Part shown: piece after piece, positions 13,039 through 62,421 of the stretch
How the letters are laid out: each line of letters begins with the position of its first letter
Position numbering within the stretch: the stretch's first letter is position 1
Source: a virus
DNA length: 64,000 nucleotides
Virus record (IMG/VR): IMGVR_UViG_3300027917_000048
Location: 1-64,000 of that record
Strand: one strand, 5' to 3'
Translations under genes and position numbers: made by a program
Notes under the pieces: model-generated
The model's database searches: none
Seen by the model: only the letters and a program-made list of their open reading frames with translations
What the model was told of the DNA's origin: nothing

Positions 13039-13039
13039 A

Positions 13040-14083
13040 TTAAATCCTTAATTCTAAGTTTGTAAAATAACCCTCTCTACCCCATTGGTGTTCAGCCATG
13101 TAAATATACCAATTACCAGAAAGTCCTAAGAAATCCTCATCTACTGTAACTACTTTTCTAGCTAATAGTTTTGAATTTCCTTCTGTTTGGAATTGAGCTG
13201 ATACTCCTAATCTATTATAGAGTGCTAGGTTATAACTAGCTGAATTGGTTGCCATGCTTTGATTATCAATAATGCTTGATACTAAAGCCATTGCTTTATA
13301 AAACTGTGTTGGAGTTGTTGGTAAAATATTTTCCATAGTATCTGTAAGAGGATTGTATGATGTCGCACTTTTAGCTTCTGCATAAATTCCTGTAGCTCCA
13401 TGCACCACTACTCTATTTCTCAAATCTCTATCAGATTCAGTTTTTATTGAATTTAAAACTATACTATCATTTAATGTTACACCAGAAATTGGGGTATCAG
13501 CTTCATCGCCTACTTGTCCAGAAGTACCATCCATAGGATAAGGTTTTCTATTTCTGAACTGTATAGCACCAGTTTCGTCTATCCACAATTGCCATGCTAA
13601 AAGGTCTGCTATAGTTTTACAAAAGTCATAAGCTCCTACTAGTTTTACCTCTACATCGTTTCCTGATTTAGTTGCAAAGCTAAAGGCACTTCCACCAGAA
13701 GGAGTATTAACCGTCCCAGTTAATCCTGCTAAAGATAAAATATTATGAATCAAATCCTCTGCTTTAATGTTATGCCACTTATAAGAATCATCTGGATTAG
13801 TCGGTACAATGAAAAAATCTATCGCTCTTACCAGATCATCTTTAGCTATAATTGTATATAAATCATCTGGCACTTGTCTCACTATATTTTTAACATAGCC
13901 CTTGAAAACTCTATTATAATCGCCAACATATCCTAAGTCTATAGTAATATTATCACCTATATTTACTGTTTTACTGGTTGCTACGATTTGTGCGGTGGCT
14001 GTACTACTATTATGACTATTAGATACAGTAATACTTAATGGGTTTGTTATTCCAGTAACACTGGCATAGAGAGTTTTAGACAT
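13040..14083 (-). CDS. Baseplate hub/tail-tip protein (gp27/gpD-like)
   Basis: A 347-residue protein with the domain order of phage hub proteins: an N-terminal beta domain (SITVSNSHNSSTATAQIVATS; GDNITIDLGYVGDYNRVFKGYVKNI), a helical middle (NIKAEDLIHNILSLAGL; FCKTIADLLAWQLWIDETGAIQFRNR) and a C-terminal part with RDLRNRVVVHGAT and SKLLARKVVTVDEDFLGLSGNWYI. Hub trimers cap the tail tube and link it to the fibres. The gene overlaps the upstream 120-residue gene by 8 bases. It appears homologous to the first third of the following 1259-residue protein. Confidence 0.65.
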   Translation of the reverse strand: MSKTLYASVTGITNPLSITVSNSHNSSTATAQIVATSKTVNIGDNITIDLGYVGDYNRVFKGYVKNIVRQVPDDLYTIIAKDDLVRAIDFFIVPTNPDDSYKWHNIKAEDLIHNILSLAGLTGTVNTPSGGSAFSFATKSGNDVEVKLVGAYDFCKTIADLLAWQLWIDETGAIQFRNRKPYPMDGTSGQVGDEADTPISGVTLNDSIVLNSIKTESDRDLRNRVVVHGATGIYAEAKSATSYNPLTDTMENILPTTPTQFYKAMALVSSIIDNQSMATNSASYNLALYNRLGVSAQFQTEGNSKLLARKVVTVDEDFLGLSGNWYIYMAEHQWGREGYFTNLELRI

Positions 14084-14438
14084 CTTCCCACAGCTCCAAG
14101 TCTACAATAAATACTGGTGCATCTTCATCTAAATCTGGTCTAAGAGTTTGGCAAGAAACAAAGGGAACTTGATCAGAAGCTACTGATTTAATTAGATAAT
14201 CTTTAGCTCCGTAAGGACCAGAAAGAGTATAAAAAATTCCAGATACAGTCATAGCAGCTAGAGCCGATTCGTCAGCTGTACCAACTATATAAGCATTTAC
14301 ATTTCTTATTTCTTCCTCATGTCCAAAATTATGAACTATAGTGCCTCCACCCAAGGGATTTAATCTTGCTGAAATTTGTTCCCAGCTTTTATTACTTGCT
14401 TGTGGAAAAATTCTTACACTACCTAAATACCAAGCCAT
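14076..14438 (-). CDS. Small tail-tip/distal tail protein
   Basis: A 120-residue protein between the tape measure and the hub proteins. It has a beta-rich pattern (GGGTIVHNFGHEEEIRNVNAYIVGTADESALAAM; GPYGAKDYLIKSVASDQVPFVSCQTLRPDLDEDAPVFIVDLELWED). Proteins of this size and place usually form the ring between tube and hub, as Dit or LysM-type baseplate proteins do. No specific family is identified, and the role comes from synteny and fold-like pattern only. Confidence 0.5.
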   Translation of the reverse strand: MAWYLGSVRIFPQASNKSWEQISARLNPLGGGTIVHNFGHEEEIRNVNAYIVGTADESALAAMTVSGIFYTLSGPYGAKDYLIKSVASDQVPFVSCQTLRPDLDEDAPVFIVDLELWEDV

Positions 14439-14446
14439 AAGTCCTC

Positions 14447-30826: not shown

Positions 30827-31030
30827 TTACGCCTCTAATTCAAAATCTGGATTGTTATCCATAAATTCAGATAAAAGCCACCACTCTGTCCAAGTGGACT
30901 GTTTTCCAATAACTTCTACTTCAACATATTCCTCCATTACAGTACCTCCTGTAATATCTGGAGACTCGTGTTGAATTATTTTTATAGAATCTATTTTCTT
31001 TTTCTTACCATTCAATCCCATTACTTTCAT
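30827..31030 (-). CDS. Small acidic protein, unknown
   Basis: A 67-residue protein from the ATG at 31030, which overlaps the stop of the glycosyltransferase gene (ATGA). The frame is open 18 codons further upstream inside that gene, but the ATGA coupling is the usual arrangement here. Short strands (IDSIKIIQHESPDITGG; EEYVEVEVIGK) precede an acidic helical tail with WTEWWLLSEFMDNNPDFELEA. No family recognised. Confidence 0.55.
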   Translation of the reverse strand: MKVMGLNGKKKKIDSIKIIQHESPDITGGTVMEEYVEVEVIGKQSTWTEWWLLSEFMDNNPDFELEA

Positions 31031-32211
31031 ATGTTCATTACTCTCTTGAATATTTCTGCCCATTGATCTGCTATATTCATCCAATTATATTCAGGTCTGG
31101 AAAACTTTTCTATTCCTTTCACAGATAATTCTTCATATAATTCTTTATCTTCATATATTTTTTGTAATTGAGTAGCTACATCTTCTGGTCTAACCACAGT
31201 ACCTACAGTCTCAATTCTCTCGAAAGTTTGGTGCATTGTAGTTGGAATTAATAAACCAATATCTGAATAAATTTCTCTACTAGCACTATTATCTGAAACT
31301 ATTTGTGGTGCTCCAGTAATAGCGTGCTCCATACTAGGTAATCCCCAACCTTCCCCCATACTGGTATTTAAACCAACATCCGTACTATTATAAACTAAAT
31401 TTAAACGATTCTCTGGTATCTTTTGTACTCCTTCTTCCATGCTGGTTAACAAAAGTCTGTGAGACATTCCGTATCTCTCTGCAAGTTTAGGAATATTCCA
31501 GCCAACGTCCCTTATTCCTGCATGGTGGTAGTATCTGATATTTGTTGGTTTATCTTCAGCAAATAGGGAAAATCCTTCTAAAGCTAGGTCTAATCTTTTT
31601 CTTGGTTGATTTCTATTTGCATTTAATACTATGAAAGAATCTTCGCTCCAAAGTTCTTCTACGTTTGGATAAGAGATTTTTCTAAGTTCTGTTTTTGGCA
31701 TCATTAACTTGTAAAAAGTTTCTGTATCTATTCCGTGTGGAATTATTTCAAAATCTATATCTTTTGGTGCGGCTTCCTTGGCAACCTCATATCCAAACTT
31801 AGTATAAACAACAGCTTGAGATACTATATCAAAATTTTCAAACCAACGTTTATCAAACTCTTCCCCATCTACTGGAAAATAAATAACTACTGGAGGTACG
31901 GGATCAAACTGTCTTTTGATTTCATTTAAGTATTCATTAATCATCCAAAGATCATTTAATATGAAAATCATATCTATCTTAGCTGTTTTAAATTCCCGTA
32001 TTCTATCCATCCCATAAACGTTTCCTCTTATTGGTGCAGGAAACATCATCCAATTATAAGGATGAGGATCGCCCCAATAGTTTACCGCTAAGTGCATTAC
32101 CTGAAAAATTTCAGAATCTAGGTTTTTAATGATCGAGTGTGCTACTCTAGAAAATCCTGTAGGTGTTACTCCATCGGAAATCCAGAGGATTCGTTTTCTT
32201 TCTTGTTCCAT
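31027..32211 (-). CDS. GT-B glycosyltransferase (family 4-like)
   Basis: A 394-residue protein with the two-Rossmann GT-B layout. The N-terminal half starts RILWISDGVTPTGFSRVAHSII (glycine-rich acceptor loop) and contains IPHGIDTETF near residue 158. The C-terminal half has FIVLNANRNQPRKRLDLALEGF, the donor-binding NSTDVGLNTSMGEGWGLPSMEHAITGAPQIVSDNSASREI (the E-x7-E-like region) and a C-terminal helix. Such enzymes move a nucleotide-activated sugar to an acceptor in the cytoplasm. It lies among head-connector and surface-fibre genes, so virion protein glycosylation is a reasonable hypothesis. SAM or DNA-modifying motifs are absent. Confidence 0.82.
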   Translation of the reverse strand: MEQERKRILWISDGVTPTGFSRVAHSIIKNLDSEIFQVMHLAVNYWGDPHPYNWMMFPAPIRGNVYGMDRIREFKTAKIDMIFILNDLWMINEYLNEIKRQFDPVPPVVIYFPVDGEEFDKRWFENFDIVSQAVVYTKFGYEVAKEAAPKDIDFEIIPHGIDTETFYKLMMPKTELRKISYPNVEELWSEDSFIVLNANRNQPRKRLDLALEGFSLFAEDKPTNIRYYHHAGIRDVGWNIPKLAERYGMSHRLLLTSMEEGVQKIPENRLNLVYNSTDVGLNTSMGEGWGLPSMEHAITGAPQIVSDNSASREIYSDIGLLIPTTMHQTFERIETVGTVVRPEDVATQLQKIYEDKELYEELSVKGIEKFSRPEYNWMNIADQWAEIFKRVMNI

Positions 32212-33470: not shown

Positions 33471-34394
33471 TTAGCTAATCCCACCGATGACATAGATTCC
33501 GTCAGCTTTCCAGATCATAAGACCGAATCTCTGATAGAATTCTAAGTTCCATTGTGGAGGGGTAGGTCGCATATCTGTCCATTCTTTATAGTTTACATCA
33601 CCATAAGTAATGAATTCTCCGACCTTCTCTCCAATAACGAGAACCTTGTCTTCAGGGATAAAGGCGTTATAGTCTTCAAAGTTGTCATAAATCTGATCGA
33701 TGGCAACAATGGGAGCACCATACCAACTTCCAAGCCAACCAGTTCGCATGATTTCCTGTAGCTGAGGATCAAGTCCTCTCCACATAGCATCTGACCCGAC
33801 GGTATTACCGTCATTCCAGAATCCACCAAACTGAGTAATTGGAGTTAGTGCCGCACGAGAACCAACAACAGCTTTAGTTCCAGAAGTAGTGCGATTGACA
33901 TAATCAATAGCGTTCTTCAAAAGAGTAGCTGTAAGCGATCCTCCAGCATCTATGAAGTTATTGGGGGTATTGGAAGCTGTCCAGATTGAAGTAAGAGCTG
34001 TAAATACTTTCTGTTGGAAAGTATCTTTCAGTTTAGCGAGCATTTCACCACGAATCTCTTCAACTGTTCCAATATCTCCGGCGTTCATCTCCCATTCATT
34101 AAACGTAACACCTACGTCTAATCCGTCAAGTAAGTAATTGGCTCTCTCGTACACAGTGATTTCACTTTTCAGATGAATTGATCCGGGTACTAACGTATAA
34201 ACTTTAATACCTTTTCTCAATTTCTTAACAAGGGAATCACCCTCCTTGAGTGAACGAGAATCCAGTAACATACTAACAAAATCGACGGTAATGTGTCCGG
34301 GTTCTAGCCATTCAACAAACATTTGAGCCAAAGCTTCTCTGTTTTCCTTATCCTTTACAGCACTTGCTAAGGCTACCTTTAATTTTTCATCCAT
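33471..34394 (-). CDS. Major capsid protein (HK97 fold)
   Basis: A 307-residue protein, small for a major capsid protein but with the expected features: an N-terminal helical part, the E-loop-like KGIKVYTLVPGSIHLKSEITVYERANYLLDG, a spine helix (TVEEIRGEMLAKLKDTFQQKVFTALTSIW), then KNAIDYVNRTTSGTKAVVGSRAAL and a C-terminal P/A-domain part (GAPIVAIDQIYDNF; DKVLVIGEKVGEFITYGDVNYKEW). It follows protease/scaffold and decoration genes in the usual order. By eye the gene is less AT-rich than its neighbours, as often for the most abundant protein. No long N-terminal delta domain is present, consistent with a separate scaffold. Confidence 0.82.
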   Translation of the reverse strand: MDEKLKVALASAVKDKENREALAQMFVEWLEPGHITVDFVSMLLDSRSLKEGDSLVKKLRKGIKVYTLVPGSIHLKSEITVYERANYLLDGLDVGVTFNEWEMNAGDIGTVEEIRGEMLAKLKDTFQQKVFTALTSIWTASNTPNNFIDAGGSLTATLLKNAIDYVNRTTSGTKAVVGSRAALTPITQFGGFWNDGNTVGSDAMWRGLDPQLQEIMRTGWLGSWYGAPIVAIDQIYDNFEDYNAFIPEDKVLVIGEKVGEFITYGDVNYKEWTDMRPTPPQWNLEFYQRFGLMIWKADGIYVIGGIS

Positions 34395-36111: not shown

Positions 36112-37575
36112 TTATTGCTTTTCTTCAGTATTTGTTTCATTTTCTTCAGTATTTCCCACCATACCCGGTGCGTTACTATGGGGTTGTGGTGCAAATTCTT
36201 CTAATCCCATCTCTTCCATAGTATCATTTTCTTTCTCTTTTAGTCTAAACTCCTCATCTATATCATATCCAAATGCTTTTGCATGATGTGTTCTGGACAG
36301 ATTTCCAGATTCGTATAAACTTGTTAATCCATCTACCAAATCTCTAAAGGAAACTAAATTAATAGGTTCAAACTTTAATGTTGGCATTTCGTTTCTGAAT
36401 TTATTTTTCTCCCATACGTTATAAACAATATCAGATAAAATTAATAAAATCTTTTCTCTAATATTTTCCATAGTACGTACTGGTGACATTGTTGCATATT
36501 CAGCATTTGAAGTACCACTTCTAGACGTTTCTCCTGTAATAAGAATTCTAGGGAATCCTAAACCAAAGATAATATCATCATTAACTTCCCTATATTTACT
36601 TTCATCCAATAGAGCTTCTACTGGAGGCATAACCCAATCTATTTGTAAAGTATGGTTAGCAAATAGTTGAAAAATTCTTTCAATATCTTCTTGGGTAGAG
36701 TAACGATGGTACATTTGACTTCTTAATTCTTCAAAGGTTTCTTCTTGATCTTCTGTAACAGGAAACTCATCACTCCCTAAACGGAACAATTGAATAGCAC
36801 TAATTACTCTGGATGCTATTGAATAGTCCATTCTTCTTAGGTTTCTCTTATGTTTTAGAGGCTCTAGTACTGGAGTTAGATATGGAGTAGGATAGGGGGA
36901 ATCCGTAACCACCCTTCTTCGTATTACTAGATCATTTTCTAATAAAACATATTGTTTATTATCTTCTACTGCTTTTACAAATTCAGGATAATAAGTTGTT
37001 AATTCTCTATATAATTCAGGGTCTTCTGTACCATCTTTATATTTTCCCTTATTTTGTATAAAGAAAATTAAATCTCTTGGAATTTTATAGAAATAAGACG
37101 GCTCTGTCATACCAAGTGCATCGTTAATTTTTATCGTGGTGGGATCACGTAACCACATATACACGGGTAAAGTAAGAGTATCATATCTCTTTATTTTCCA
37201 CTCTTGTAGTTCTTTCTTTGTAACTGGTGCGTACTTAATTTCTGGAACAACTAGTCCAGAAAGAAGGTATTCTAAAGAAATTTGTTCTGCGAATTCTTTT
37301 AGTTTTGGAACTAAATTGTCCATTATTTTCTTTTCATTCTCATTTAGTTTGGACGTATCGTATTCGATATTATTAATTCCTATTTCAGTCATTTTATCAA
37401 CAACAGTATTCACCAAAGAATCGTATCTATAGAAAAACCTACAAGCATTTACCAGCTCTTCAAATGTATCTAAATCTAATACTTCCATCTTATCAATCAC
37501 GGAGCTGCTCCAAGGATTGGTAAAAGAAATATTTTGATTAGGTAAAAAAGTTGCTTTAGCTAAAGTATCAGTCAT
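36112..37575 (-). CDS. Portal protein
   Basis: A 487-residue protein from the ATG at 37575, chosen over an upstream GTG because it overlaps the terminase stop (ATGA) and has AGGTGG eight bases before it. Features of portals are present: long helices, a stem-like segment (EYLLSGLVVPEIKYAPVTKKEL), RRMDYSIASRVISAIQLFRLG, and SRSGTSNAEYATMSPVRTMENIREKILLILSDIVY with the following conserved region. The C-terminal 50 residues are acidic and disordered. It forms the 12-subunit DNA entry ring and docks the terminase encoded just upstream. Confidence 0.85.
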   Translation of the reverse strand: MTDTLAKATFLPNQNISFTNPWSSSVIDKMEVLDLDTFEELVNACRFFYRYDSLVNTVVDKMTEIGINNIEYDTSKLNENEKKIMDNLVPKLKEFAEQISLEYLLSGLVVPEIKYAPVTKKELQEWKIKRYDTLTLPVYMWLRDPTTIKINDALGMTEPSYFYKIPRDLIFFIQNKGKYKDGTEDPELYRELTTYYPEFVKAVEDNKQYVLLENDLVIRRRVVTDSPYPTPYLTPVLEPLKHKRNLRRMDYSIASRVISAIQLFRLGSDEFPVTEDQEETFEELRSQMYHRYSTQEDIERIFQLFANHTLQIDWVMPPVEALLDESKYREVNDDIIFGLGFPRILITGETSRSGTSNAEYATMSPVRTMENIREKILLILSDIVYNVWEKNKFRNEMPTLKFEPINLVSFRDLVDGLTSLYESGNLSRTHHAKAFGYDIDEEFRLKEKENDTMEEMGLEEFAPQPHSNAPGMVGNTEENETNTEEKQ

Positions 37576-39128
37576 GTTGTTAACCACCTACTTTTGAACA
37601 ATTTCGTTTGATTTTTAGCAGGAAGAAAGTACTCATGCTCTAGGTAGTACGCCATACTCCCACACAACAAAGCTGCTGTAAAGTGGTCTTCTCCTCTCTG
37701 TCCTCCTCTTGGAGTTAAAGTTTTATATACTAAATCTCCTGTTGGTGTTTTAGAGTAGGTCATTCTCTCTAATTCAGAAACTAATTCTAAATCAGTGGAA
37801 GAATAAATGAACTTATGGTTATTAGAGTACTCCTGTAAAATAGAAACTGAAAAAGGTTTTGTTTTAGATTTTATTTCTTCTCCGTCAGAATCAAACCCTA
37901 GTGAAATCTGTGAAGAAAAATTAATTGGTACTACTCTTTTCTTGTAGTCTTTATGTAAGTATTCTTTTGAATCTTGCAAGCGTTGAATAACGCTTATTCC
38001 TGCTGAACCCCAATCAACTCCTATAGCTATGGGGTTATATATTGTATCTAATTTATCTATTATCTTATCTTGAAGAGCATAAGATACCTTATTCATTTGC
38101 ACCCGACAATGAAATTTTAATTGACCAGATGCTATTGAATAGAAAATAATTATTGCTGTTGGGTCTGTGTATCCTAAATCTATTCCAAAATAAACTTTTT
38201 TAGCACTAGATGGTAATGCTGGAAGTCCAGCTAATTTAGGGATATAATCACCAAAATTCTCTTTTAACTTAATTCCATCAAGCACTAGTTTATATACTGG
38301 ATAAGAATCTATTTGCATTGTATTTCTGTCAAAAATAGAGAATATCGGAGAACCATGCTCCCCTAATACCAAATGAATATAGTCCTCATTATCTTCGCCA
38401 CCATATTTCTCTATTGCATCTTGGTGATCTTTTTCAGTAAATCTAGGATTATCAAATGCAGACACCATATGTTTAGTATAAGATGAATCTTCTTGATCAT
38501 TTACCCAAAGTACATTCTTTTCTCTAATTCCAGTAGGCACTCCAGAACTTAATAACCTGTGTCCTTTAGTAAAAGTATTAAGAATTGGTTGTAATTCTAC
38601 CCAAGTACCCCAAGGATAGTAACCAGATTCATCCAACATTACAAAAGGTACGTGTAAACCAATAACGTTTGCACCTGTTCCAGTAGTACCAGCAATACGA
38701 CAAGTTAATGTACTTTGATTTAATAAAGTTACTTCAAACGTAGAGCTATTAAATCCAGATGTTGGAGAAACAAAATTCCTAAGAAAAGAATTCGATCTAA
38801 AAATTCTTATCAATCCTCTCCATACTGGTTGTAAATGTACTCTACTAGGTACGGTGTAAACAATATCATAGCCGGGAAATACTTTAAATATAAGTATCCA
38901 AGTTATAATAGAAACTAGGGAAACTGTTTTACCAACACTTCTTGCTGTAGCTATGGAAACGTGGTAATGAAAATCACAAAGAATTTGTTTCTGATACCAA
39001 GAGAATTCAAATTCTTCTTCCCATTCCCGTCTATCATAATTATTAATAAATTCGTTGCATAATACCGGGTTACGTAAAATTTCGTAAAGTATTAAATCTT
39101 CGTTAGTTACTTTTTCAATTATTGCCAT
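37572..39128 (-). CDS. terL: Terminase large subunit
   Basis: A 518-residue packaging motor. The ATPase part has a Walker-A-like ATARSVGKT (residues about 59-67), a Walker B FVMLDESG near 162 and the coupling LSSGVPTG motif. The nuclease part has GIDLGYTDPTAIIIF near 316, GVDWGSAG near 370 and the C-terminal metal ligand EDHFTAALL near 480. ATP hydrolysis drives DNA into the prohead and the nuclease cuts concatemers. It overlaps the portal gene by 4 bases. It is preceded by sugar-module genes instead of a clear small subunit, which is unusual. Confidence 0.93.
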   Translation of the reverse strand: MAIIEKVTNEDLILYEILRNPVLCNEFINNYDRREWEEEFEFSWYQKQILCDFHYHVSIATARSVGKTVSLVSIITWILIFKVFPGYDIVYTVPSRVHLQPVWRGLIRIFRSNSFLRNFVSPTSGFNSSTFEVTLLNQSTLTCRIAGTTGTGANVIGLHVPFVMLDESGYYPWGTWVELQPILNTFTKGHRLLSSGVPTGIREKNVLWVNDQEDSSYTKHMVSAFDNPRFTEKDHQDAIEKYGGEDNEDYIHLVLGEHGSPIFSIFDRNTMQIDSYPVYKLVLDGIKLKENFGDYIPKLAGLPALPSSAKKVYFGIDLGYTDPTAIIIFYSIASGQLKFHCRVQMNKVSYALQDKIIDKLDTIYNPIAIGVDWGSAGISVIQRLQDSKEYLHKDYKKRVVPINFSSQISLGFDSDGEEIKSKTKPFSVSILQEYSNNHKFIYSSTDLELVSELERMTYSKTPTGDLVYKTLTPRGGQRGEDHFTAALLCGSMAYYLEHEYFLPAKNQTKLFKSRWLTT

Positions 39129-39790
39129 AAACTATTAAAATCAATTCTTGGAATTATATCCTCACTTAGTTTTGTTTTAGAACTTGCGTTATACAGTTTT
39201 CTTCCAGAACCCTCATAGTACTCTCTTGCTAATTTGTAACCAAGCTCTACTCTCTCTAAATTTTGATGATTATATTTTACTTTACCTGAAAAATAATTGG
39301 GATCAAAATGATTTGGATCGCCTCCCTTATTTATAAATTTCCCCCTATCAACTCTTTCTGTATTAGAATAATCTATAAAATGATCCATACCTATAATATA
39401 TACTGGATCAAGTCCCATATAAAATGCTACCTGTAAAGCTACATTTGTAACTGAATGTCCCTGCCAAATTGGTACTGCTATACTAGGACTGAACTTGGGT
39501 ACATCATTTGTCCAACGAAGTTTATAAGTATTTTCTCCCCTAAGACTGTGGGTGAATTTAGCTTCACACTCAAAAGATTCCATCTCTTCTCTAAATTGAT
39601 CTTCAACTAAATTATCTATTGTTACTAGATATGTTATGGATAAATCTTTTTTTATATACCCTCTATTTAGACCAAAAACTATTTCCCCCTTTAATTTAGA
39701 AACATCTATATTATTGAGGCTCGGACCATTGCACGCAATAAATCCTCGTCTACCTTTGTGGATGTTTTTGAATCGTGTAATCCCTTCCAA
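39119..39790 (-). CDS. GPSL-motif transferase-like protein (DUF115/GT42-like)
   Basis: A 223-residue protein. The start is TTG at 39790 with GGAGG four bases upstream, giving an 85-base overlap with the preceding gene. Near the N-terminus is RGFIACNGPSLNNIDVSKLKGEIVFGLNRGY, the pattern shared by DUF115/MptE-like proteins and GT42 sialyltransferases (NGPSL for nucleotide-sugar binding). GLDPVYIIGMDHFIDY follows near 130 and a C-terminal LAREYYEGSGRKLYNAS helix-strand. As the gene follows the CMP-sugar synthetase, transfer of the activated nonulosonate is the leading hypothesis. The acceptor is unknown. Confidence 0.6.
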   Translation of the reverse strand: MEGITRFKNIHKGRRGFIACNGPSLNNIDVSKLKGEIVFGLNRGYIKKDLSITYLVTIDNLVEDQFREEMESFECEAKFTHSLRGENTYKLRWTNDVPKFSPSIAVPIWQGHSVTNVALQVAFYMGLDPVYIIGMDHFIDYSNTERVDRGKFINKGGDPNHFDPNYFSGKVKYNHQNLERVELGYKLAREYYEGSGRKLYNASSKTKLSEDIIPRIDFNSLWQ

Positions 39791-40440
39791 ATTACCTCCG
39801 CAATCTCGAAATCACTTTCATAATTAATATCTACAGCCTCTATATAATTTATTGGTACTCCTCTAAAATTATTTGGATCAATTCTTTTTTTATTCTCAAA
39901 AGCATATTTAGTTTTAAAAGCATACAGTCCGGTATGTTCTACAAAAGTATAAGGCAGTTCTTTTGAATTTAAAAGTTTTCCGTCTTTATAATAATCTGGA
40001 GTTAAACTTTCAGTTGGATGTTTTTTACTCCAAGTATATAACTTTTCTGATGTAGCTGTAAAACTAGAATTATAGCCAGTTACTACATTTCCAATACATT
40101 CATCAATAGTTTTTGGTTTTATGAAAGGAGATGTTGGTACTACTTGTACTATAATATCATATTGAGGTAAACTTTGTGCTTGCCAATAAGCTAAATCATC
40201 TCCTGTTATAAAATTATTGGCTAAATATTGGGGACGTTTTAATGGCTTAGCTCCACAAGCTATACCAACTTTTAGAATTATATCGTCTTCGCTATCTATA
40301 TAAACATCATTTACTAATTTAGCATCACAGGCATTTTTTATAGCATGACAAATTAATGGTTTACCTCCAAGTTTTCTTAAATTCTTGTTTGGTAATCTTT
40401 CGCTTTTACCTTTTGCATGTACTACAGCAGCTACTCTCAT
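39706..40440 (-). CDS. neuA: NeuA-type CMP-nonulosonate (acylneuraminate) cytidylyltransferase
   Basis: A 244-residue protein from the ATG at 40440, which overlaps the preceding stop (ATGA) and has GGGAG six bases upstream; an 18-codon extension is rejected. The N-terminus is VAAVVHAKGKSERLPNKNLRKLGGKPLICHAI, the nucleotide-binding signature of CMP-sialic acid synthetases. VYIDSEDD and the QVVPTSPFIKPKTIDECI motif follow. The reaction is CTP plus nonulosonate to CMP-nonulosonate plus pyrophosphate. It is about the family length. Neighbours NeuB and the GPSL protein complete a synthesis-activation-transfer route. Confidence 0.85.
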   Translation of the reverse strand: MRVAAVVHAKGKSERLPNKNLRKLGGKPLICHAIKNACDAKLVNDVYIDSEDDIILKVGIACGAKPLKRPQYLANNFITGDDLAYWQAQSLPQYDIIVQVVPTSPFIKPKTIDECIGNVVTGYNSSFTATSEKLYTWSKKHPTESLTPDYYKDGKLLNSKELPYTFVEHTGLYAFKTKYAFENKKRIDPNNFRGVPINYIEAVDINYESDFEIAEVIWKGLHDSKTSTKVDEDLLRAMVRASII

Positions 40441-41012
40441 GTATACTCCCTTTCCAATATTGCTATTGCGTCTGATATATGTACTATTCTCCAAGGTTCT
40501 TCATAATCCATTGCATATCTAACAGCAGTTACAACCCCTTCCTCTGTTTTATCATAGTCATCAAAAATAATATATTTAGTTACTCTATTTTTTAACATAT
40601 TCCAATCTAACAGAGGATTTGGGTCACGATGATCTCCGTCTATAAAACCACAACTAAATCTATAATTCCCCCAAACCATTTCTTCAGAGGGTATTTGATA
40701 AACTCGTATTTTGTTTTCCACTCCCCAAATACTGGCATTATCATAAATATCTCTAGGATTTGGTTCAATACACCATATATCCCCATCCAATTTAAATTCT
40801 TTTTTAGTAAGAGCTGCTGTAATAGCAGAGCCTCCGTGTAAAGAACCTATCTCTACATAATCACCGTGTCCAGCATTTCTTATTGCCTGACATAATAAAC
40901 CAGTAGCATGTGAACTTTGTACTAACTTGTTTCCTAGTTTATCCTTTATCTCCTTATGCAAACGTCTACCATAATAGTATCCGTCATTTAGGGGGAAGAA
41001 AAATTTATCCAT
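40437..41012 (-). CDS. Class I SAM-dependent methyltransferase (Methyltransf_24-like)
   Basis: A 191-residue protein with the Rossmann motif I YVEIGSLHGGSAITAAL near residues 52-68, IWCIEPNPRD as motif II, and FIDGDHRDPNPLLDWNMLKNR with the acidic metal/substrate residues seen in cephalosporin-hydroxylase/TylF-like sugar O-methyltransferases. IIFDDYD follows. It is flanked by a second methyltransferase and by NeuA with short overlaps, so methylation of the nonulosonate or of a glycan carrying it is likely. Confidence 0.75.
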   Translation of the reverse strand: MDKFFFPLNDGYYYGRRLHKEIKDKLGNKLVQSSHATGLLCQAIRNAGHGDYVEIGSLHGGSAITAALTKKEFKLDGDIWCIEPNPRDIYDNASIWGVENKIRVYQIPSEEMVWGNYRFSCGFIDGDHRDPNPLLDWNMLKNRVTKYIIFDDYDKTEEGVVTAVRYAMDYEEPWRIVHISDAIAILEREYT

Positions 41013-41553
41013 TATCTATCACCTTGAAAGCAAAACTTGAATAAGAATCCTCTAACCAATAATAGCTTATCAGTTCAACTGGTATACCGAATTCTATAAA
41101 AGCCCTGAACTCGTCTGAGTAACTTTTAGAAATAAATTCATCAAAATATAAAACCGTACCCGGCACTATTCTTTCAAAGAGATTTAAAGTCCATAGTACA
41201 TTACGTGTTGAGTAATAAAGGTCTGCATCGAAATTTATAAAAGCTGCTTTCTCTTTGTGCTCTATTAAGAAATGACCAATCGTAATATCAAAGTTACCCT
41301 TTACTGTTACTACATTTTTTGGCAAGTCTGGAACAATTCCTCTTAAATCAAATGTACCCTTTTTATATTTACCATACCAATCTTCAGGTAAACCAGCAAA
41401 ACTATCAAAGCCGTAAATAGTTCTATCTGGTAATAGTTTAGAAAGTATTTTAGTAGTAGCTCCTTTATACACACCAAACTCTAGAATAAGCCCATCTAAA
41501 GTTATGCTTCTTATAGCTCTCCTAAATACATCTAATCTATTTTGTCCAATCAC
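41005..41553 (-). CDS. TylF/MycF-like O-methyltransferase
   Basis: A 182-residue protein, start GTG at 41553 with AGGA upstream, overlapping NeuB by 17 bases. It shows the TylF (macrocin-O-methyltransferase) pattern: LILEFGVYKGATTKILSKLLPDRTIYGFDSFAGLPEDW, then GNFDITIGHFLIEH, AAFINFDADLYYSTRNVLWTL and GTVLYFDEF. Family members add methyl groups to sugar hydroxyls using S-adenosylmethionine and a metal. The context suggests a sugar acceptor within the nonulosonate pathway. Confidence 0.78.
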   Translation of the reverse strand: MIGQNRLDVFRRAIRSITLDGLILEFGVYKGATTKILSKLLPDRTIYGFDSFAGLPEDWYGKYKKGTFDLRGIVPDLPKNVVTVKGNFDITIGHFLIEHKEKAAFINFDADLYYSTRNVLWTLNLFERIVPGTVLYFDEFISKSYSDEFRAFIEFGIPVELISYYWLEDSYSSFAFKVIDNG

Positions 41554-42430
41554 TAGAGCTTCCTAAGTAAGTATTTCCATAAGTTTGTTTCTGTAAAAAT
41601 TCCTCTTCCACTTTACTCATACCAAATTCTGTCTTGAAAACAACATCTGGTAAGTTATATTCAACAGAAGAATCCTTACTCTCTTCAATCATTTGTTTGA
41701 ATTCTTTTGGCTCTAGACTACATTCTATATGATGTACAAAAGAATGTCTAGATAAACAAAAATGTCTTTCTATTAAATATGGATCATATTTTTTAGCAAC
41801 AACTACAGAGGGTACTATCCCCTCTTCATGTCCAGAGTACCCTATCTTTACTTTGGAAGTTTCAAATTCATCTTTTAATTTCTGAATATTTCCTAATCTT
41901 AATTTACTAATTGGGCAGGGATATTCAGCCACGCAATGTTGTAAAACTACTCTTCTATCTCCCAAAGTTTCTAAGAGATTGTCTATCTCTTTTAGGGTAG
42001 AGCCTCCCACTGAAACTACTAGTTGTTTGGTCTTGGGTACTTGTTTCCCTAATTCTTGTATAAAAGCATAGTCCCTTGCACTTGAAGATGCTATCTTATA
42101 TTTGGGAAGTTTATATTCTAACATAAATTCCAAAGATGGAATATCCTGTACAGTAGCAAACCACTTTATTTTTAATCGCTTACACAGTGAATCAAATCTA
42201 TCAAAGTCCTCTTTGCCAAATTCAAATATTTTCCTGTAATCCCAATACGTTTTTCCATAGGGGGATAGGTAAAATCTATCCAACTTTTCCTTAGAGTAAT
42301 AAGTTTCAACGTCCTTCTTCTGCATCTTAATGAAGTCTGCACCCGCAATTCTTGCTTCTCTAACCATTTCTTCAAGTACATTATAATTTCCCATATGGTT
42401 TGTTGTAAATTCTGCTACAAACTGTGTCAT
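41537..42430 (-). CDS. neuB: NeuB-type nonulosonate (sialic acid) synthase lacking the SAF domain
   Basis: A 297-residue TIM-barrel enzyme. Matches to NeuB: FVAEFTTNHMGNYNVLEEMVREARIAGADFIKMQ at the N-terminus, YKIASSSARDYAFIQEL, VVSVGGSTLKEIDNLL, HCVAEYPCP, GYSGHEEG with His201 and IERHFCL with His223 (the two metal-binding histidines). The reaction is condensation of phosphoenolpyruvate with an N-acyl amino sugar to a nine-carbon acid. The usual C-terminal antifreeze-like (SAF) domain is missing; the protein ends soon after FKTEFGMSKVEEEFL. No NeuC or other precursor enzyme is present, so substrate must come from the host. Confidence 0.85.
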   Translation of the reverse strand: MTQFVAEFTTNHMGNYNVLEEMVREARIAGADFIKMQKKDVETYYSKEKLDRFYLSPYGKTYWDYRKIFEFGKEDFDRFDSLCKRLKIKWFATVQDIPSLEFMLEYKLPKYKIASSSARDYAFIQELGKQVPKTKQLVVSVGGSTLKEIDNLLETLGDRRVVLQHCVAEYPCPISKLRLGNIQKLKDEFETSKVKIGYSGHEEGIVPSVVVAKKYDPYLIERHFCLSRHSFVHHIECSLEPKEFKQMIEESKDSSVEYNLPDVVFKTEFGMSKVEEEFLQKQTYGNTYLGSSSDWTK

Positions 42431-42648
42431 ATAACCTCCTCTTCATAATCACACTTATCGCACTTAAGCCAAATATCAGTCCAACCCCTACCATCTTCAT
42501 CATCATAACAAACTAACGTCCTGTGTACTAAACCATAACCACAAACACACGGTTTAGGATAACCATTTTCTTCACTACACATAAAACATTTTTTATCACC
42601 CTTATCGTGGTCATAAAAATAATATTCCCATTCTCCCGGCTCTACCAT
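42427..42648 (-). CDS. Small zinc-binding protein
   Basis: A 73-residue protein with cysteine pairs CFMC, CVC and CDKC (KCFMCSEENGYPKPCVCGYGLVHR... LKCDKCDYEEEV), consistent with one or two zinc ribbons. It overlaps NeuB by 4 bases and the RraA-like gene by 7, so it is translated with the sugar module. It is not a known sugar enzyme; it could be an adaptor or simply one of the many small zinc proteins this phage carries. Confidence 0.6.
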   Translation of the reverse strand: MVEPGEWEYYFYDHDKGDKKCFMCSEENGYPKPCVCGYGLVHRTLVCYDDEDGRGWTDIWLKCDKCDYEEEVI

Positions 42649-43298
42649 CTCCCAAACTCCTTATAAACTTTTTTCCCTATTCCAACACTATCATTTTCAA
42701 TAATTGCATCTCTTATCTCTTGTTCATAGTCTAATTTTATTGGCAACAAGTTAATTACGTCTTCTAATAGCTCCCATCGTATTACTAAAATAGCATCTTC
42801 ATCCGCAAAAATATAATCGTAGGGAGTAATAAAAATATTTCCTATAACTATTTCCTCCAGATAGTTAGTAATACCCCACCTATCAGCAGAGTCTTGTGGC
42901 TGTACACCTTTAGCCCAAATAGGAAAACCATAGCTTTCTATTCTTCTAATATCTCTAGTCCAACCCTGTATTACTGCACCGACAGCACCTTTCTTTTTTA
43001 GAAATAGTGACATTATATCTCCAAAATGAGCACGACTATTATCATTAGCTTGTAAAATATAAACATCCCCCGGCATTATTTCATCTATCATCTCTGCTAC
43101 TCTTTCGTGATTAGGCGAAGATGTTTTATCTCCTCTGGCTGTAAAAGCTTTCCCAAATATAAATCCATTTGCACTAGAAAATCTTGGCTTTACTAGAGGT
43201 TTTATATCATTAGGAAGTACAAAATTCTCTTTATACTTTAAATCAAACTTTATAATGTCGTATATAGCACCGCTGTATGCCCTTGAATCAATCTTCAT
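42642..43298 (-). CDS. RraA/HMG-aldolase-family protein
   Basis: A 218-residue protein from the ATG at 43298 (AAAGGAG six bases upstream; 11 extra upstream codons rejected). The central part HFGDIMSLFLKKKGAVGAVIQGWTRDIRRIESYGFPIWAKGVQPQDS follows the RraA pattern (GD, GAxGxVxxGxxRD, P(V/I)xA), where the R-D residues bind metal and pyruvate-like ligands. Family members are 4-hydroxy-4-methyl-2-oxoglutarate or oxaloacetate-type aldolases, or RNase E inhibitors. As the first gene of the sugar block it may act on a keto-acid sugar, but its substrate is unknown. Confidence 0.7.
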   Translation of the reverse strand: MKIDSRAYSGAIYDIIKFDLKYKENFVLPNDIKPLVKPRFSSANGFIFGKAFTARGDKTSSPNHERVAEMIDEIMPGDVYILQANDNSRAHFGDIMSLFLKKKGAVGAVIQGWTRDIRRIESYGFPIWAKGVQPQDSADRWGITNYLEEIVIGNIFITPYDYIFADEDAILVIRWELLEDVINLLPIKLDYEQEIRDAIIENDSVGIGKKVYKEFGRW

Positions 43299-43635: not shown

Positions 43636-43865
43636 TTAGCATCTCCATGAAACCCGTAATCTTCAATCACTCTGAAAATATCAGATATTGGGTATTTGTA
43701 AATCTTTTCACCATTCACAAATACACATAGAAAGCTTCCTTTTTCATAAAGATTTATAGTATTTGCGTGTATTATCGGCTGTGATTGCAATTTCAAGTGT
43801 ATTGTTACACCGTGCGTGTTTATATCCACCGCATCAAAGCCGTCGTTTAGCAACAGTTCACTCAT
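43632..43865 (-). CDS. Small hypothetical protein
   Basis: A 77-residue protein of mixed alpha/beta character (FDAVDINTHGVTIHLKLQSQPIIHANTINLY; GSFLCVFVNGEKIYKYPISDIFRVIEDYG). It has no signal, membrane segment or recognised motif. One-base overlap with the metalloprotease gene upstream and ATGA with the next gene show tight coupling. Function unknown. Confidence 0.6.
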   Translation of the reverse strand: MSELLLNDGFDAVDINTHGVTIHLKLQSQPIIHANTINLYEKGSFLCVFVNGEKIYKYPISDIFRVIEDYGFHGDAK

Positions 43866-44308
43866 TACTTAACTCCTTTCACAATGTTAAATATTTCTTT
43901 CATAGTAAATTGTTTAGTATCCAGTAACCAATTAGCACCAGTTATAAAAGCACCCCACTCTTCAGCTTCTGCTAATTTAGTTAGTGCGATTATGTCAGCA
44001 TTGTGTTCATTGTTTACACAATTTTTACCTTGTAATACGTGCCCCCACTCGTGGGCTAAAGTATATTTCCATAAAGCAGACTTCTCTGTTTTCCATTTAG
44101 GGGAAAGATAAACGGTGCTGGTACACACTAATGGATCACCAACAGCGAGTGTGGCACTCCACCAAGTACCTATATCCCTAAACTGCCAGTTGGTAGCAAC
44201 ACCAAAGTATGGTTGCATCTTCTCAGCAAAATCATCAGCAGACTCCACAGAAAAGGGAGATACTATTGAAATACTTAGAAGAATTAAACTAATGAACAGT
44301 TGGCTCAT
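43865..44308 (-). CDS. Secreted zinc metalloprotease-like protein (HEWGH)
   Basis: A 147-residue protein. Residues 1-23 look like a cleavable signal peptide (MSQLFISLILLSISIVSPFS then VESA). The zinc-protease helix is LAHEWGHVLQG with His86, Glu87 and His90, and NNEHNAD (Glu101, Asp105) eleven residues later can give the third ligand. A cysteine pair (Cys62, Cys96) could form a disulfide outside the cell. The protein is minimal in size for such an enzyme. Possible roles are cell-envelope protein cleavage at lysis or defence against surface proteins; the target is unknown. Confidence 0.7.
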   Translation of the reverse strand: MSQLFISLILLSISIVSPFSVESADDFAEKMQPYFGVATNWQFRDIGTWWSATLAVGDPLVCTSTVYLSPKWKTEKSALWKYTLAHEWGHVLQGKNCVNNEHNADIIALTKLAEAEEWGAFITGANWLLDTKQFTMKEIFNIVKGVK

Positions 44309-44498: not shown

Positions 44499-44722
44499 TC
44501 ACGCATCTCCTCGTTAAATTTATTTATGGTATTAGCATGTGCTCTAATTTCTCCTATATAATTATCATTTGCTTCGTTTAACATTTCTCTATAGTTTGCT
44601 ATTATATTTTTGTAAGTAGAAATTATTGAATCCCATTGAGCTATTGTAGCTGCTGTTCCAACAAGATACCCTATCATAAAAACAAGTATTCCTCCTAAAA
44701 TTACAAATCCGTCTTCCATCAC
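44495..44722 (-). CDS. Membrane-anchored helical protein
   Basis: A 75-residue protein with one N-terminal membrane span (FVILGGILVFMIGYLVGTAATIA, residues about 6-28) and a long charged helix after it (YKNIIANYREMLNEANDNYIGEIRAHANTINKF). This architecture resembles i-spanins or antiholins, but no outer partner is evident. It is coupled to both neighbours through 4-base overlaps. Confidence 0.55.
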   Translation of the reverse strand: MMEDGFVILGGILVFMIGYLVGTAATIAQWDSIISTYKNIIANYREMLNEANDNYIGEIRAHANTINKFNEEMRE

Positions 44723-45660
44723 TTACTCCTTTCCTCTAAATCTTTTATTAGTTTATCTACTCCAGCATTTTCTCTAAAAAAATTTCTTTTGTATTTAATT
44801 CTATCTATTGTCCTGTCTGCATAAGCTTGTTCACAAGTATTTAATACTTGTGATAAATTAATTGGATAAGTAGTTAAAGAATATTCTGGAAAAAGAACAT
44901 CCGTAGCTCCATAGGTGTTTGTACCAACAAAAAAAGTTCCGCTAAAAGCTGCGTCATAAACTGCACGACCAGTGGTTAATCTATAAGATAAATCCACAAA
45001 TATCTTACTCCTATCCATTAAGTGATCAAAGCGTTGAATAGATGCTCTTGTAAATTTTTTAGTATTAGTAATTATAGGGTAATCTAGTTTATCCTTATAA
45101 AATTCGTAAAGTTCTGTATTTAGAATCATTACACAAATAGAATACTTTCTTCTCTTTAATTCTGTAAATAATTCTAAGGTTTCTACTACATTTCTATTTG
45201 TATCTAAACAAGTAAAAAAATCTATATCTTTTATCTTAGATATTGGTTTTTCAAATTCTGTATGATAACAGCGTAATGGTAATCTTTCAACTGGTTTTGA
45301 AAAAGGATTATACCAAACTGGTTGTTCCCAAATGAATTTATCACAAGGCTCGAAAGTTTTATGAAAAAACCTTGATGTATTTTTAGGTCCATCTAGCTTA
45401 TATAGTTTACCTAGATGGTTATCAGCATCAAACTCTATCCAAAAGTTTCGAGCCTCTTTTTTTAATTTATTTGGTAAATCCTTCCAAGCATTATATTGAT
45501 CTAATTTCCAAACGCAATGTAGAATTACATTATCGCCTGTAAAATCAGTATCTTTAGCTTCTAAGTAGTTTAAATACTTAGCACCCATATGCTTTTGTAT
45601 TACGTAGATAGGATAAAACGCTTTTGTATCTACCCCAATCCTTGAAATTATATACCACAT
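44719..45660 (-). CDS. Glycosyltransferase-like protein (GT-B, C-terminal donor domain)
   Basis: A 313-residue protein. The second half has the GT-B donor-site pattern in reduced form: SKIFVDLSYRLTTGRAVYDAAFSGTFFVGTNTYGATDVLFPEYSLTTYPI, comparable to the E-x7-E region of GT4 enzymes (acidic residues replaced or shifted), followed by a C-terminal helix. The first half has alternating strands and helices (YIISRIGVDTKAFYPIYVIQKHMG; FFTCLDTNRNVVETLELFTELKRRKYSICVMI). A third sugar-transfer gene in the same late unit as NeuB/NeuA. It may be active or a degenerate, sugar-binding relative. Confidence 0.6.
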   Translation of the reverse strand: MWYIISRIGVDTKAFYPIYVIQKHMGAKYLNYLEAKDTDFTGDNVILHCVWKLDQYNAWKDLPNKLKKEARNFWIEFDADNHLGKLYKLDGPKNTSRFFHKTFEPCDKFIWEQPVWYNPFSKPVERLPLRCYHTEFEKPISKIKDIDFFTCLDTNRNVVETLELFTELKRRKYSICVMILNTELYEFYKDKLDYPIITNTKKFTRASIQRFDHLMDRSKIFVDLSYRLTTGRAVYDAAFSGTFFVGTNTYGATDVLFPEYSLTTYPINLSQVLNTCEQAYADRTIDRIKYKRNFFRENAGVDKLIKDLEERSK

Positions 45661-46364
45661 TATATTATGCTTTCTGGAAGAACCTCTGGTTTATTAGATG
45701 CTAAACTAGTAGCCCATAAGCCTCTAGTATCCACACTAAACTTATGATTACACAAAACCTCAGGCTCTTTTCCTCCTTTCCTTCTATTACAAGTAAAAGT
45801 TAATACATTATCTACTTCTGGATATTGTACCCAAATAGTAGCCAAGAGCATATCACACTTAGGGCAAATAATGTACCTCATTTTTTGATCAGCAAATCTC
45901 TGTGCTTTCTCTTTTAGGGTTTCAACAGTTTGAATAACATCTTCTCTATCATCTGATTTTCTTACTTTACGACTAATTTTTAAATCAGTTTGCTGATTAG
46001 ATATATCTCTTCTTAAATCTGAAATGATCTTCTGTATCTTATCAACAGTCATAATATTATCTGCTCCAATATTCTGACGTTCTTCATAAGCCATTAATTC
46101 AAAGTCTTCTAATGAAATTAAGCCTTGTGCCAAAGCTCTTAGTATTAAAAGATCATTTGACTTCATATCAGAAAGATCATAGTCTTCGGTTAATTCATTT
46201 ATTTTTTGTTGTATCCGTTCCTCAAAATCTTCACCAAGAGGTTCAGCCTTATACTCTTCTTTTCTTTCTTCTATAATTTCTAAGAATTCTTCTTCACTCA
46301 AGTCTTTGTATTGAGGAAGATTTCTAAGGCTTTTCGGACTTATTGCTCTCTTGTGTTTCGACAA
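45660..46364 (-). CDS. Zinc-ribbon, coiled-coil protein; possible terminase small subunit
   Basis: A 234-residue protein starting at TTG 46364, seven bases after AAAGGAG. A basic, helical N-terminal half (KHKRAISPKSLRNL; NDLLILRALAQGLISLEDFELMAYEERQ; KIQKIISDLRRDISNQQTDLKISRKVRKSDD) precedes a zinc ribbon: CPKC near residue 169, then FTCNRRKGGKEPEVLCNHKF. Terminase small subunits in some phages combine DNA-binding helices and coiled coils, and this is the only candidate upstream of TerL. The distance of 6 kb from TerL and the ribbon leave other DNA- or RNA-binding roles open. Confidence 0.4.
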   Translation of the reverse strand: MSKHKRAISPKSLRNLPQYKDLSEEEFLEIIEERKEEYKAEPLGEDFEERIQQKINELTEDYDLSDMKSNDLLILRALAQGLISLEDFELMAYEERQNIGADNIMTVDKIQKIISDLRRDISNQQTDLKISRKVRKSDDREDVIQTVETLKEKAQRFADQKMRYIICPKCDMLLATIWVQYPEVDNVLTFTCNRRKGGKEPEVLCNHKFSVDTRGLWATSLASNKPEVLPESII

Positions 46365-59129: not shown

Positions 59130-60098
59130 ATGAAAGGATTGGATTTTGATGATATTCTACTATTACCAAGAGGATCAACAGTAAACTCTAGAGATAGTGC
59201 AGATATATCGGTACAATTGGGAGAGGATTTAACTTTAGATATACCCATCATAGCATCGCCAATGAAGGGAATAGTTAGTGTTGGCTTAATAAAAGAAATG
59301 GATAAATTGGGTGGAATAGGAATTTTACATAAATTTTATGATGATTGGGAACAGTGGAATGAGGATTTAGTCTCATTAAAGAATGTAAAATTTGGAGCAG
59401 CTATTGGATTAAATGAGGGTTCTAAATCTCAAGTTGCTATTAATCATGGTGCTAAAATTCTATGTATAGATGTAGCTAATGGTTATTTAGAAACTGTTTT
59501 GAGATTTACGGAAAAAGTATCTGCTTATATTGCTAATGGTAACTTTGATACTTTACTTATGGTTGGAAATATAGTAACAGCAGACGGAGCTAGAAACCTA
59601 TCTTTAGCTGGTGCTGATCTAATTAGGGTTGGTATAGGCTCTGGAAACCTATGTACTACTAGAAATGTAACCGGAGTTGGTATGCCACAATTGACAGCTA
59701 TAAAAAATACCAGCTCTATAAATGATAAATATAATACCCTTCCTAGATTTATAGCAGATGGAGGTATCCGCAATTCGGGAGATGCTGTGAAAGCACTTGT
59801 CTTTGGTGCTGATGCAGTTATGCTTGGCTCTCTATTAGCTACTACCTATGAGTCAGCTAACAACGGCATCATATATGGCATGGCTAGTAGACGTATGCAG
59901 GATGAATACTATCACGGTATCAAGTCAGTTGAGGGGATAGAACAATCGGTTACACCTGTTCGCCCTCTTGCAGAATTTATTGATGAATTCACTTATGGTA
60001 TCAAATCAGCTTGCACATACCTCAATGCACCCAATCTTAGAAGATTAAGAAATGCCAATTATGTAGAGGTTAGTCATAATTCAATCAAGAAACTTTAA
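59130..60098 (+). CDS. IMP dehydrogenase/GMP reductase family protein
   Basis: A 322-residue TIM-barrel protein without CBS domains. FDDILLLP at the start, DIPIIASPM, GGIGILHKF, IDVANGY, the catalytic loop GIGSGNLCTTRNVTGVGMPQLTA (Cys175) and FIADGGIRNSGDAVKALVFGADAVMLGSLL bind phosphate and NAD(P). The TGVG after CTTR is GMP-reductase-like, while ADGGIRxSGD is IMPDH-like, so direction of the IMP-XMP or GMP-IMP reaction is not decided. It would adjust guanine nucleotide pools during replication. A structured leader precedes it. Confidence 0.85.
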   Translation: MKGLDFDDILLLPRGSTVNSRDSADISVQLGEDLTLDIPIIASPMKGIVSVGLIKEMDKLGGIGILHKFYDDWEQWNEDLVSLKNVKFGAAIGLNEGSKSQVAINHGAKILCIDVANGYLETVLRFTEKVSAYIANGNFDTLLMVGNIVTADGARNLSLAGADLIRVGIGSGNLCTTRNVTGVGMPQLTAIKNTSSINDKYNTLPRFIADGGIRNSGDAVKALVFGADAVMLGSLLATTYESANNGIIYGMASRRMQDEYYHGIKSVEGIEQSVTPVRPLAEFIDEFTYGIKSACTYLNAPNLRRLRNANYVEVSHNSIKKL

Positions 60099-61242: not shown

Positions 61243-61420
61243 GGATGAAATTTTAGCAGAGGAAATAAGAACAAAGATAGACGAATTAAACCATCTTATA
61301 CACGAGTCTATTAGAGATAGAGGGTTACGAGTTGATATGGAAATAAATGAGTTTTTTATAGCAGGATATAGAGAAAGATTAACACAAATAGATTGTAGAA
61401 TTTATAAGGAGGTGCTATAA
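61232..61420 (+). CDS. Small helical protein before the serine protease
   Basis: A 62-residue acidic helical protein (AEEIRTKIDELNHLIHESIRDRGLRVDMEINEFFIAGYRERLTQID). AAAGGAG lies before the ATG and its stop overlaps the protease start (TAATG), so it is co-translated with the protease and may be a partner or inhibitor. No direct evidence for this. Confidence 0.58.
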   Translation: MEAKDEILAEEIRTKIDELNHLIHESIRDRGLRVDMEINEFFIAGYRERLTQIDCRIYKEVL

Positions 61421-62421
61421 TGTACAAAGAAGTTTTAAATGCTAAGAATTTTGGTAAAGAAGAGTTATTAGAAAGACCAAATGTAGTTGGCGTAGCTGTT
61501 GGTAAAAAAGTCACAGATGGGGAAACTACAGATGATCTTAGCGTGGTTGTATTAGTAGAAAAGAAATTAACTCCCAATGCTTTAACAGAATTAGATTTAG
61601 TTCCTCAGTCTGTTTTGGGAGTGCCCACTGATGTTGTTGAAGTAGGTAAGTTAGAAGCTTTAGTTGATCGTAAAGCACGACATAGACCAGCACCCGGAGG
61701 AGTAAGCATAGGTCACTTTGCTATTACTGCTGGTACTTTAGGAGCTGTTGTATTGGATGCCATTACTGGAGAAAGGGTTATTCTTTCTAATAACCATGTG
61801 CTTGCTAATAGTAATGATGCCATGATAGGAGATACCATTATTCAGCCGGGTTATTATGACGGTGGTAGAACAAGTACAGACACTATTGGTTATTTATTGA
61901 GATTTAAAGAAATTGATTTTGGCGAAGAACCTGCTGACTGTCCTATTGCAGAAGGTAGTGCTAAAGTATTAAATTCAGTAGCTAAGTTTGTAGGCTCTAA
62001 GCATCGTTTGAGTGCAGCTAGGATTCAAGCAGGTGCTGTAAACTATGTTGATGCCGCATTAGCACAGCCAATTAATGATGGTGCTATATCAAATGAGATT
62101 TTGGACATTGGTGTAATTGATGGTACAGTCTCTCCATATATTGGTATGTTTATTCGCAAGTCGGGCAGGACTACCGGATATACTCATGGTAGCGTATTAA
62201 TGTTACATGGTACAGTTAATGTTAGTTATGGTGGAGATAGGATGGCTAGATTTGAAGAACAAATTATTGCCGGAGCTATGTCTGCTGGTGGAGACTCTGG
62301 ATCGTTAGGAGTTGCTGAAGAAGAAAATAAAGCTTTTGGTTTGTTATATGCAGGTTCATCTCAAGCTACTATTTTTAATCCTATTGATAAAGTTATTGAA
62401 GCTCTAACAATTAAATTCTAA
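61420..62421 (+). CDS. Chymotrypsin-fold (PA clan) serine protease
   Basis: A 333-residue protein. Catalytic triad candidates: His126 in VILSNNHVLAN, Asp211 in NYVDAALAQ and Ser293 in SAGGDSGSLGV, with the order His-Asp-Ser and the GDSGS motif of trypsin-like enzymes. An N-terminal 90-residue part (RPNVVGVAVGKKVTDGETTDDLSVVVLVEKKL) resembles Nal1-like bacterial proteases. No signal peptide, so it acts in the cytoplasm or in the virion. Possible roles are cleaving host proteins, processing phage proteins or anti-defence. Phage proteases of this clan outside capsid maturation are uncommon. Confidence 0.78.
   Translation: MYKEVLNAKNFGKEELLERPNVVGVAVGKKVTDGETTDDLSVVVLVEKKLTPNALTELDLVPQSVLGVPTDVVEVGKLEALVDRKARHRPAPGGVSIGHFAITAGTLGAVVLDAITGERVILSNNHVLANSNDAMIGDTIIQPGYYDGGRTSTDTIGYLLRFKEIDFGEEPADCPIAEGSAKVLNSVAKFVGSKHRLSAARIQAGAVNYVDAALAQPINDGAISNEILDIGVIDGTVSPYIGMFIRKSGRTTGYTHGSVLMLHGTVNVSYGGDRMARFEEQIIAGAMSAGGDSGSLGVAEEENKAFGLLYAGSSQATIFNPIDKVIEALTIKF

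Follow-up and report, generated by a model that had tools for sequence, protein, structure and literature searches.

Gene content and conservation of the block upstream of TerL

The window, a 64,000-nucleotide stretch of DNA, covers most of a 64.8-kb record of an uncultured phage, in which positions 1 to 47.6 kb carry virion and lysis genes on the minus strand and replication genes follow on the plus strand from 48 kb. The block of sugar genes examined here lies on the virion strand near this divergence point, with TerL at its end (Table 1). An earlier note, made from the letters of the sequence, had described six genes in tight overlap at 39119–43298, and all of these open reading frames were present on the minus strand directly upstream of TerL. 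Pfam matches supported its reading of them as a synthase, a CMP-activating enzyme and methyltransferases, and profile and fold matches its reading of the NGPSL protein as a transferase. The gene list was nevertheless incomplete, in that a seventh, 73-codon gene between RraA and NeuB (absent from sister phage L001) had been missed, and a glycosyltransferase-like gene at 44719–45660 probably belongs to the module as well. The CMP synthetase and NGPSL genes overlapped by 85 nt, as they also did in the sister phage.

Table 1. Genes of the module and associated glycosyltransferase and terminase genes (positions in the window).
Feature	Position	Strand	Evidence
RraA-like protein, 218 aa	42642–43298	minus	Pfam RraA-like 4e-26; alignment to HMG/CHA aldolase 3noj
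73-aa protein with CxxC pairs, no assigned function	42427–42648	minus	
NeuB-family synthase, 297 aa, SAF-less	41537–42430	minus	Pfam NeuB 3.5e-48; aligned to SiaC 2wqp
TylF-like methyltransferase	41005–41553	minus	Pfam TylF 1.6e-12; phrog_6608 5e-27
Methyltransf_24-type SAM methyltransferase	40437–41012	minus	Pfam 8.6e-6
CMP-sugar synthetase (NeuA/PseF/KdsB superfamily), start codon ATG at 40440	39706–40440	minus	Pfam CTP_transf_3 2.3e-16
NGPSL protein, GT42-like (CstII-like) putative CMP-sugar transferase	39119–39790	minus	Profile and fold
Probable GT-B glycosyltransferase, probable module member	44719–45660	minus	Pfam Glycos_transf_1 1.5e-3; L224 gene order
GT-B glycosyltransferase inside virion gene cluster, possible partner	31027–32211	minus	phrog_2170 5.9e-43
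Large terminase (TerL), directly downstream of module	37572–39128	minus	phrog_2 2.4e-14

All six genes were found in L001 in identical order beside TerL, at 64–85% identity. Between the two phages, dN/dS (NG86) was 0.094 for NeuB, 0.081 for NGPSL, 0.157 for the CMP synthetase, 0.186 for RraA, and 0.235 and 0.254 for the two methyltransferases, compared to 0.074 for TerL and 0.084 for the portal. These values point to purifying selection comparable to that on virion genes, and the conserved synteny together with dN/dS of 0.08–0.25 places the module genes far from chance. A methyltransferase, the CMP synthetase, NGPSL and TerL were retained in another contig, L006, and Methyltransf_24-type homologues adjoined CMP synthetase and NGPSL genes in both L006 and L224.

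The earlier note was also right that the module is co-directed with the virion genes and that the phage carries no enzyme for making the sugar precursor, as no match to Epimerase_2 (PF02350), DegT (PF01041) or Epimerase (PF01370) was found in the record. By these family matches, the record would not hold a complete de novo nonulosonate pathway, and the aldose is presumably host-supplied. Late expression of the module, which the note had stated, we infer from gene orientation, a sign of co-direction and not of timing; scans for promoters and terminators returned counts near or below shuffle expectation. The host was not assignable, with the putative major capsid protein (33471–34394) matching Bacillus phages at only 21%. 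Among isolated phages there were just two distant matches to NeuB and none to NGPSL or RraA.

A SAF-less synthase and its RraA-like partner

Alignment to SiaC (2wqp) showed that NeuB kept E7, K35, K112, S115, H201 and H223, corresponding to SiaC E25, K53, K129, S132, H215 and H236; the first three are the PEP-site Glu and Lys residues and the last two the metal histidines, both of which the earlier note had picked out. No match to the SAF (antifreeze-like) domain was found in this protein or anywhere in the record, and PDB 6ncs (290 aa) and most retrieved NeuB homologues are likewise too short for this domain. The position of SiaC D247 was occupied by H234, the second of two adjacent histidines (233–234). 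This site was a histidine preceded by a second histidine in 14 of 14 subfamily sequences from 10 contigs, the window included, and an aspartate in 177 of the 179 other NeuB sequences gathered from viruses and bacteria. In the SiaC structure, D247 and E134 line the aminosugar site; because E134 was also not conserved across the wider SAF-less group, the His-His pair alone marks the subfamily. Scores against the curated equivalog models NeuB_NnaB and PseI were 143 and 129 bits, below the cut-offs of 400 and 340. As judged by the Asp247 position, the window protein would not count as a Neu/Leg/Pse synthase proper. Given the missing SAF domain and the replacement of a near-invariant aspartate, a ManNAc or bacillosamine-type substrate should not be assumed, and the earlier proposal of an ordinary nonulosonate made from such sugars found no support in that form. 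"Nonulosonate" is still a fair class label for the product.

The module shares a NeuB-family synthase and a CMP synthetase with bacterial Neu/Leg/Pse clusters (NeuB/PseI with NeuA/PseF), and here a transferase follows. It differs from those clusters in lacking precursor enzymes, the SAF domain and D247, and in having an RraA partner, two methyltransferases and a phage location. The SAF-less NeuB of Leptospira (6ncs) gave the best profile match (5e-34) and is similar in length (~290 aa), but it has an aspartate at the D247 site and no His-His pair.

RraA lay beside NeuB, on its upstream side, in all 10 His-His subfamily contigs, nine of them viral (window included) and one a bacterial metagenome bin (L105). 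The two genes were separated by the 73-aa gene in the window and by a TylF-like stretch in L225. In an independent scan of viral contigs for window-type RraA, a CMP synthetase was nearby at 35 of 36 loci, most of which were one fused open reading frame of ~434 codons, and NGPSL adjoined in many; Pfam confirmed both the CMP synthetase and RraA domains in one fused protein. Such fusions included L217:7125-8429 and L010:8710-10014, with ~25 more in viral contigs and one in bacterial genome L245. As the 36 loci were redundant, they were reduced to 13 clusters at 90% identity, 11 of which had a CMP synthetase within 1.5 kb, compared to 1 of 34 bacterial RraA loci (p = 5e-8), a control drawn mostly from one class of genomes and so no broad sample of bacteria. 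The one locus among these with a CMP synthetase was a fusion too, with a TylF-like gene upstream. RraA is thus the most constant partner of both the His-His synthase and the phage CMP synthetase, although the earlier note gave it no role.

Eleven fusion-bearing phage contigs, which may be incomplete, showed no match to NeuB or DHDPS/NanA. Since these contigs lack NeuB, RraA appears to track the CMP-sugar step and not one synthase. KdsA was present in 7 of the 11; in the two examined (L226 and L227), it formed a pair with its own KdsB-like gene ~12 kb from the fusion gene.

The RraA-like protein kept the aldolase-type residues G93-D94 and R115-D116, which were conserved in six diverse homologues. 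It thereby has the metal- and pyruvate-binding residues of an RraA-superfamily aldolase, and such an activity is predicted. The HMG/CHA aldolase 3noj has the same G-D and R-D active-site residues and the same long-form length; it differs in belonging to aromatic catabolism, whereas the window protein is tied to CMP-sugar synthesis. From fold and residues, its reaction may be an aldol or retro-aldol step at that end of an ulosonic acid which resembles pyruvate. A role for RraA as a replacement of the synthase was set aside, as NeuB is present and conserved in the module. Curated RraA equivalog models scored 15–36 bits against cut-offs of 136–241 (RraA_entero E = 0.016).

The CMP synthetase matched PDB NeuA 9t4z (1.3e-16) and, below cut-off, the PseF model (1.3e-21). 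K19, N20, R69, D204 and D210 were invariant in its alignment (A6), and the cytidylyltransferase fold, N-terminal loop motif and conserved aspartates are those expected of a CMP-ulosonate synthetase. In the open-access literature, which was covered in part, we found no paper linking RraA to NeuB or to a cytidylyltransferase.

The putative NGPSL transferase and neighbouring glycosyltransferases

A profile (A9) built from 25 viral-contig homologues of NGPSL matched the sialyltransferases CstII (8.8e-10) and CstI (2.1e-7) and the Maf protein 5mu5 (6e-5), vs just 0.04 for the pterin enzyme MptE. On this basis we rejected the assignment as an MptE pterin kinase, although Pfam gave MptE-like at 5e-7, below the model cut-off. 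Single-sequence phmmer against PDB returned no match; the profile alone did. The AlphaFold model (pLDDT 90.5) had CstII 1ro8 as its best PDB fold match (E = 8.5e-4, TM 0.51, 16% identity), with human ST6GALNAC2 third and ST8SiaIII fourteenth. The transferase-like character suggested in the earlier note was thus much strengthened by profile and predicted structure, and the protein is best described as a predicted homologue of GT42-like (CstII-type) sialyltransferases with a modest fold match. It resembles C. jejuni CstI/CstII and the DUF115/Maf flagellin glycosyltransferases in its NGPSL nucleotide-site motif and predicted fold, and departs from them in low identity (16%) and a single short domain. 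With this match, a synthase, an activating enzyme and a transferase are all present.

The combination extends beyond the family of the window phage, as short overlapping NGPSL–CMP synthetase–NeuB operons recurred in the distant, unrelated phages L015 and L019. NGPSL or GT29 genes lay within 5 kb of NeuB at 24 of 63 viral loci vs 1 of 49 bacterial loci (Fisher p = 1.7e-6), the loci being best-scoring matches dereplicated at 80% NeuB identity and not a random sample. NGPSL homologues also occurred without a nearby CMP synthetase (L007, L008), and at L008:7358-10954 three paralogues stood in tandem, one of them fused to glycosyltransferase- and methyltransferase-like parts. In the 484-kb phage LR756508 (L003), at least three genes for animal-type GT29 sialyltransferases flanked NeuB at 11247-16068 (Pfam 1e-26 to 1e-32), and a fourth was detected by profile.

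The slot upstream of TerL appears to be a variable glycan island, since related phages carried other sugar genes there: in L020 and L024, glycosyltransferase and sugar genes of other kinds lay between TerL and the gene at 45660–46364. By eye, L191 apparently shares the latter gene, followed by CMP synthetase, RraA, NeuB, a HAD-like gene and NGPSL. In L224, a homologue of the 44719–45660 gene was directly upstream of RraA, NeuB, CMP synthetase, phosphatase, methyltransferase and NGPSL, and this adjacency to RraA makes the window gene a probable part of the module. The L224 homologue matched Glycos_transf_1 at 7.7e-6; as the AlphaFold model of the window protein (three sequences) was poor (pLDDT 37.7), weak Pfam matches are what support calling this protein a GT-B enzyme. 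The histidine phosphatase (L224:9510-10004) and HAD-like gene (L191:4346-4720), neither of which occurs in the window module, suggest a phosphorylated intermediate in these siblings.

The GT-B gene within the virion cluster was conserved in L020 and L025, and the TerL slot of L020 was without a NeuB module. Related glycosyltransferases lay beside the portal gene or near TerL in phages S-CBS4 and TJE1, whose islands resemble the window in placing glycosyltransferase and methyltransferase genes there but whose examined regions carried no annotation of a NeuB/RraA/CMP synthetase set. In L225, a portal-like gene followed the module (by eye).

Proposed pathway, product and acceptor

We propose that the module encodes a phage pathway that makes a CMP-activated 3-deoxy-2-ulosonic sugar of the nonulosonate class and transfers it, with a virion protein as the most likely acceptor (probability roughly 0.55). 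Taken separately, the making and transfer of a CMP-ulosonate is likely, and a virion acceptor is about an even call. NeuB would condense PEP with a host-supplied aldose, probably other than ManNAc, and RraA, with its metal-dependent pyruvate-aldolase fold, would act on the same ulosonic acid, perhaps in aldol/retro-aldol tailoring or proofreading. The NeuA/KdsB-type enzyme would then form the CMP-sugar, the TylF-like and Methyltransf_24 enzymes would methylate the sugar or glycan, and the GT42-like NGPSL protein would attach the sugar in terminal position, probably to a glycan initiated by the GT-B enzymes of the phage. More tentatively, and less likely than not, the RraA-coupled His-His synthase may represent an undescribed, mainly phage-borne ulosonic-acid pathway in which RraA is an obligate partner of the CMP synthetase and the product decorates virions.

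The nature of the product leaves room for another reading, which we consider possible but would not bet on: a different 3-deoxy-ulosonic acid, C8 and Kdo-like or unfamiliar, to whose carbon skeleton RraA contributes, on either acceptor. The His-His substitution in the substrate site, the missing SAF domain, the fusions in contigs without NeuB or DHDPS/NanA matches and the KdsA genes in seven of these contigs all fit such a product; the best matches in the window are nevertheless to the NeuB family and PseF-like proteins, KdsA and KdsB fit no better, and the fusion contigs may be incomplete. A reading by Pfam family names, in which RraA regulates RNase E, NGPSL is a pterin pyrophosphokinase (MptE) and the cluster is a chance grouping, deserves hardly any credence given the RraA equivalog scores far under cut-off, the preference of the NGPSL profile for CstII, and the recurrent linkage and fusion of RraA with CMP synthetase.

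As to the acceptor, the same chemistry could serve to place the sugar on a host glycan (LPS, capsule or teichoic acid), masking receptors and so preventing superinfection or keeping progeny from re-adsorbing to debris. The host presumably supplies the precursor, and bacterial lipooligosaccharide is a substrate of GT42 enzymes such as CstI/CstII, both in keeping with a host-surface role. We consider this role less likely, however, as the module heads the strand that carries TerL, portal and capsid genes, which makes a virion protein the most likely acceptor; the extra GT-B gene in the virion cluster, kept in relatives, and the glycosyltransferases near portal or TerL in S-CBS4 and TJE1 likewise favour a glycan on the phage particle, as does the portal-like gene beside the L225 module. 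Virion glycosylation is thus favoured over a change of the host surface. A sugar on phage DNA is very improbable: the phage encodes a T4-gp1-like dNMP kinase, but no thymidylate-synthase/hydroxymethylase family match was found in the 64.8-kb record, and the NGPSL transferase matches sialyltransferases.

The module makes it possible to test whether a phage builds and attaches a sialic-acid-like sugar of its own. On the particle, such a sugar would bear on surface charge, adsorption or recognition; on the host, it would amount to a receptor-masking system. The constant position of RraA beside the His-His NeuB hints at an unusual product and a sugar coat on virus or host cell, and repeated gene fusion ties RraA-like proteins, a group rich in annotations but with few established functions, to the biosynthesis of CMP-sugars. 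Both the coupling to RraA and the His-His form of the synthase were unexpected here and set the module apart from known NeuB/NeuA clusters.

Elsewhere in the window, positions 43865–44308 encode a small protein, kept in L001, whose start is signal-like and whose HEWGH sequence resembles the HExxH motif, so that it is possibly a secreted metalloprotease. The phage also encodes a member of the IMPDH/GMP-reductase family at 59130–60098 and a protease-like protein (phrog_20754) at 61420–62421.
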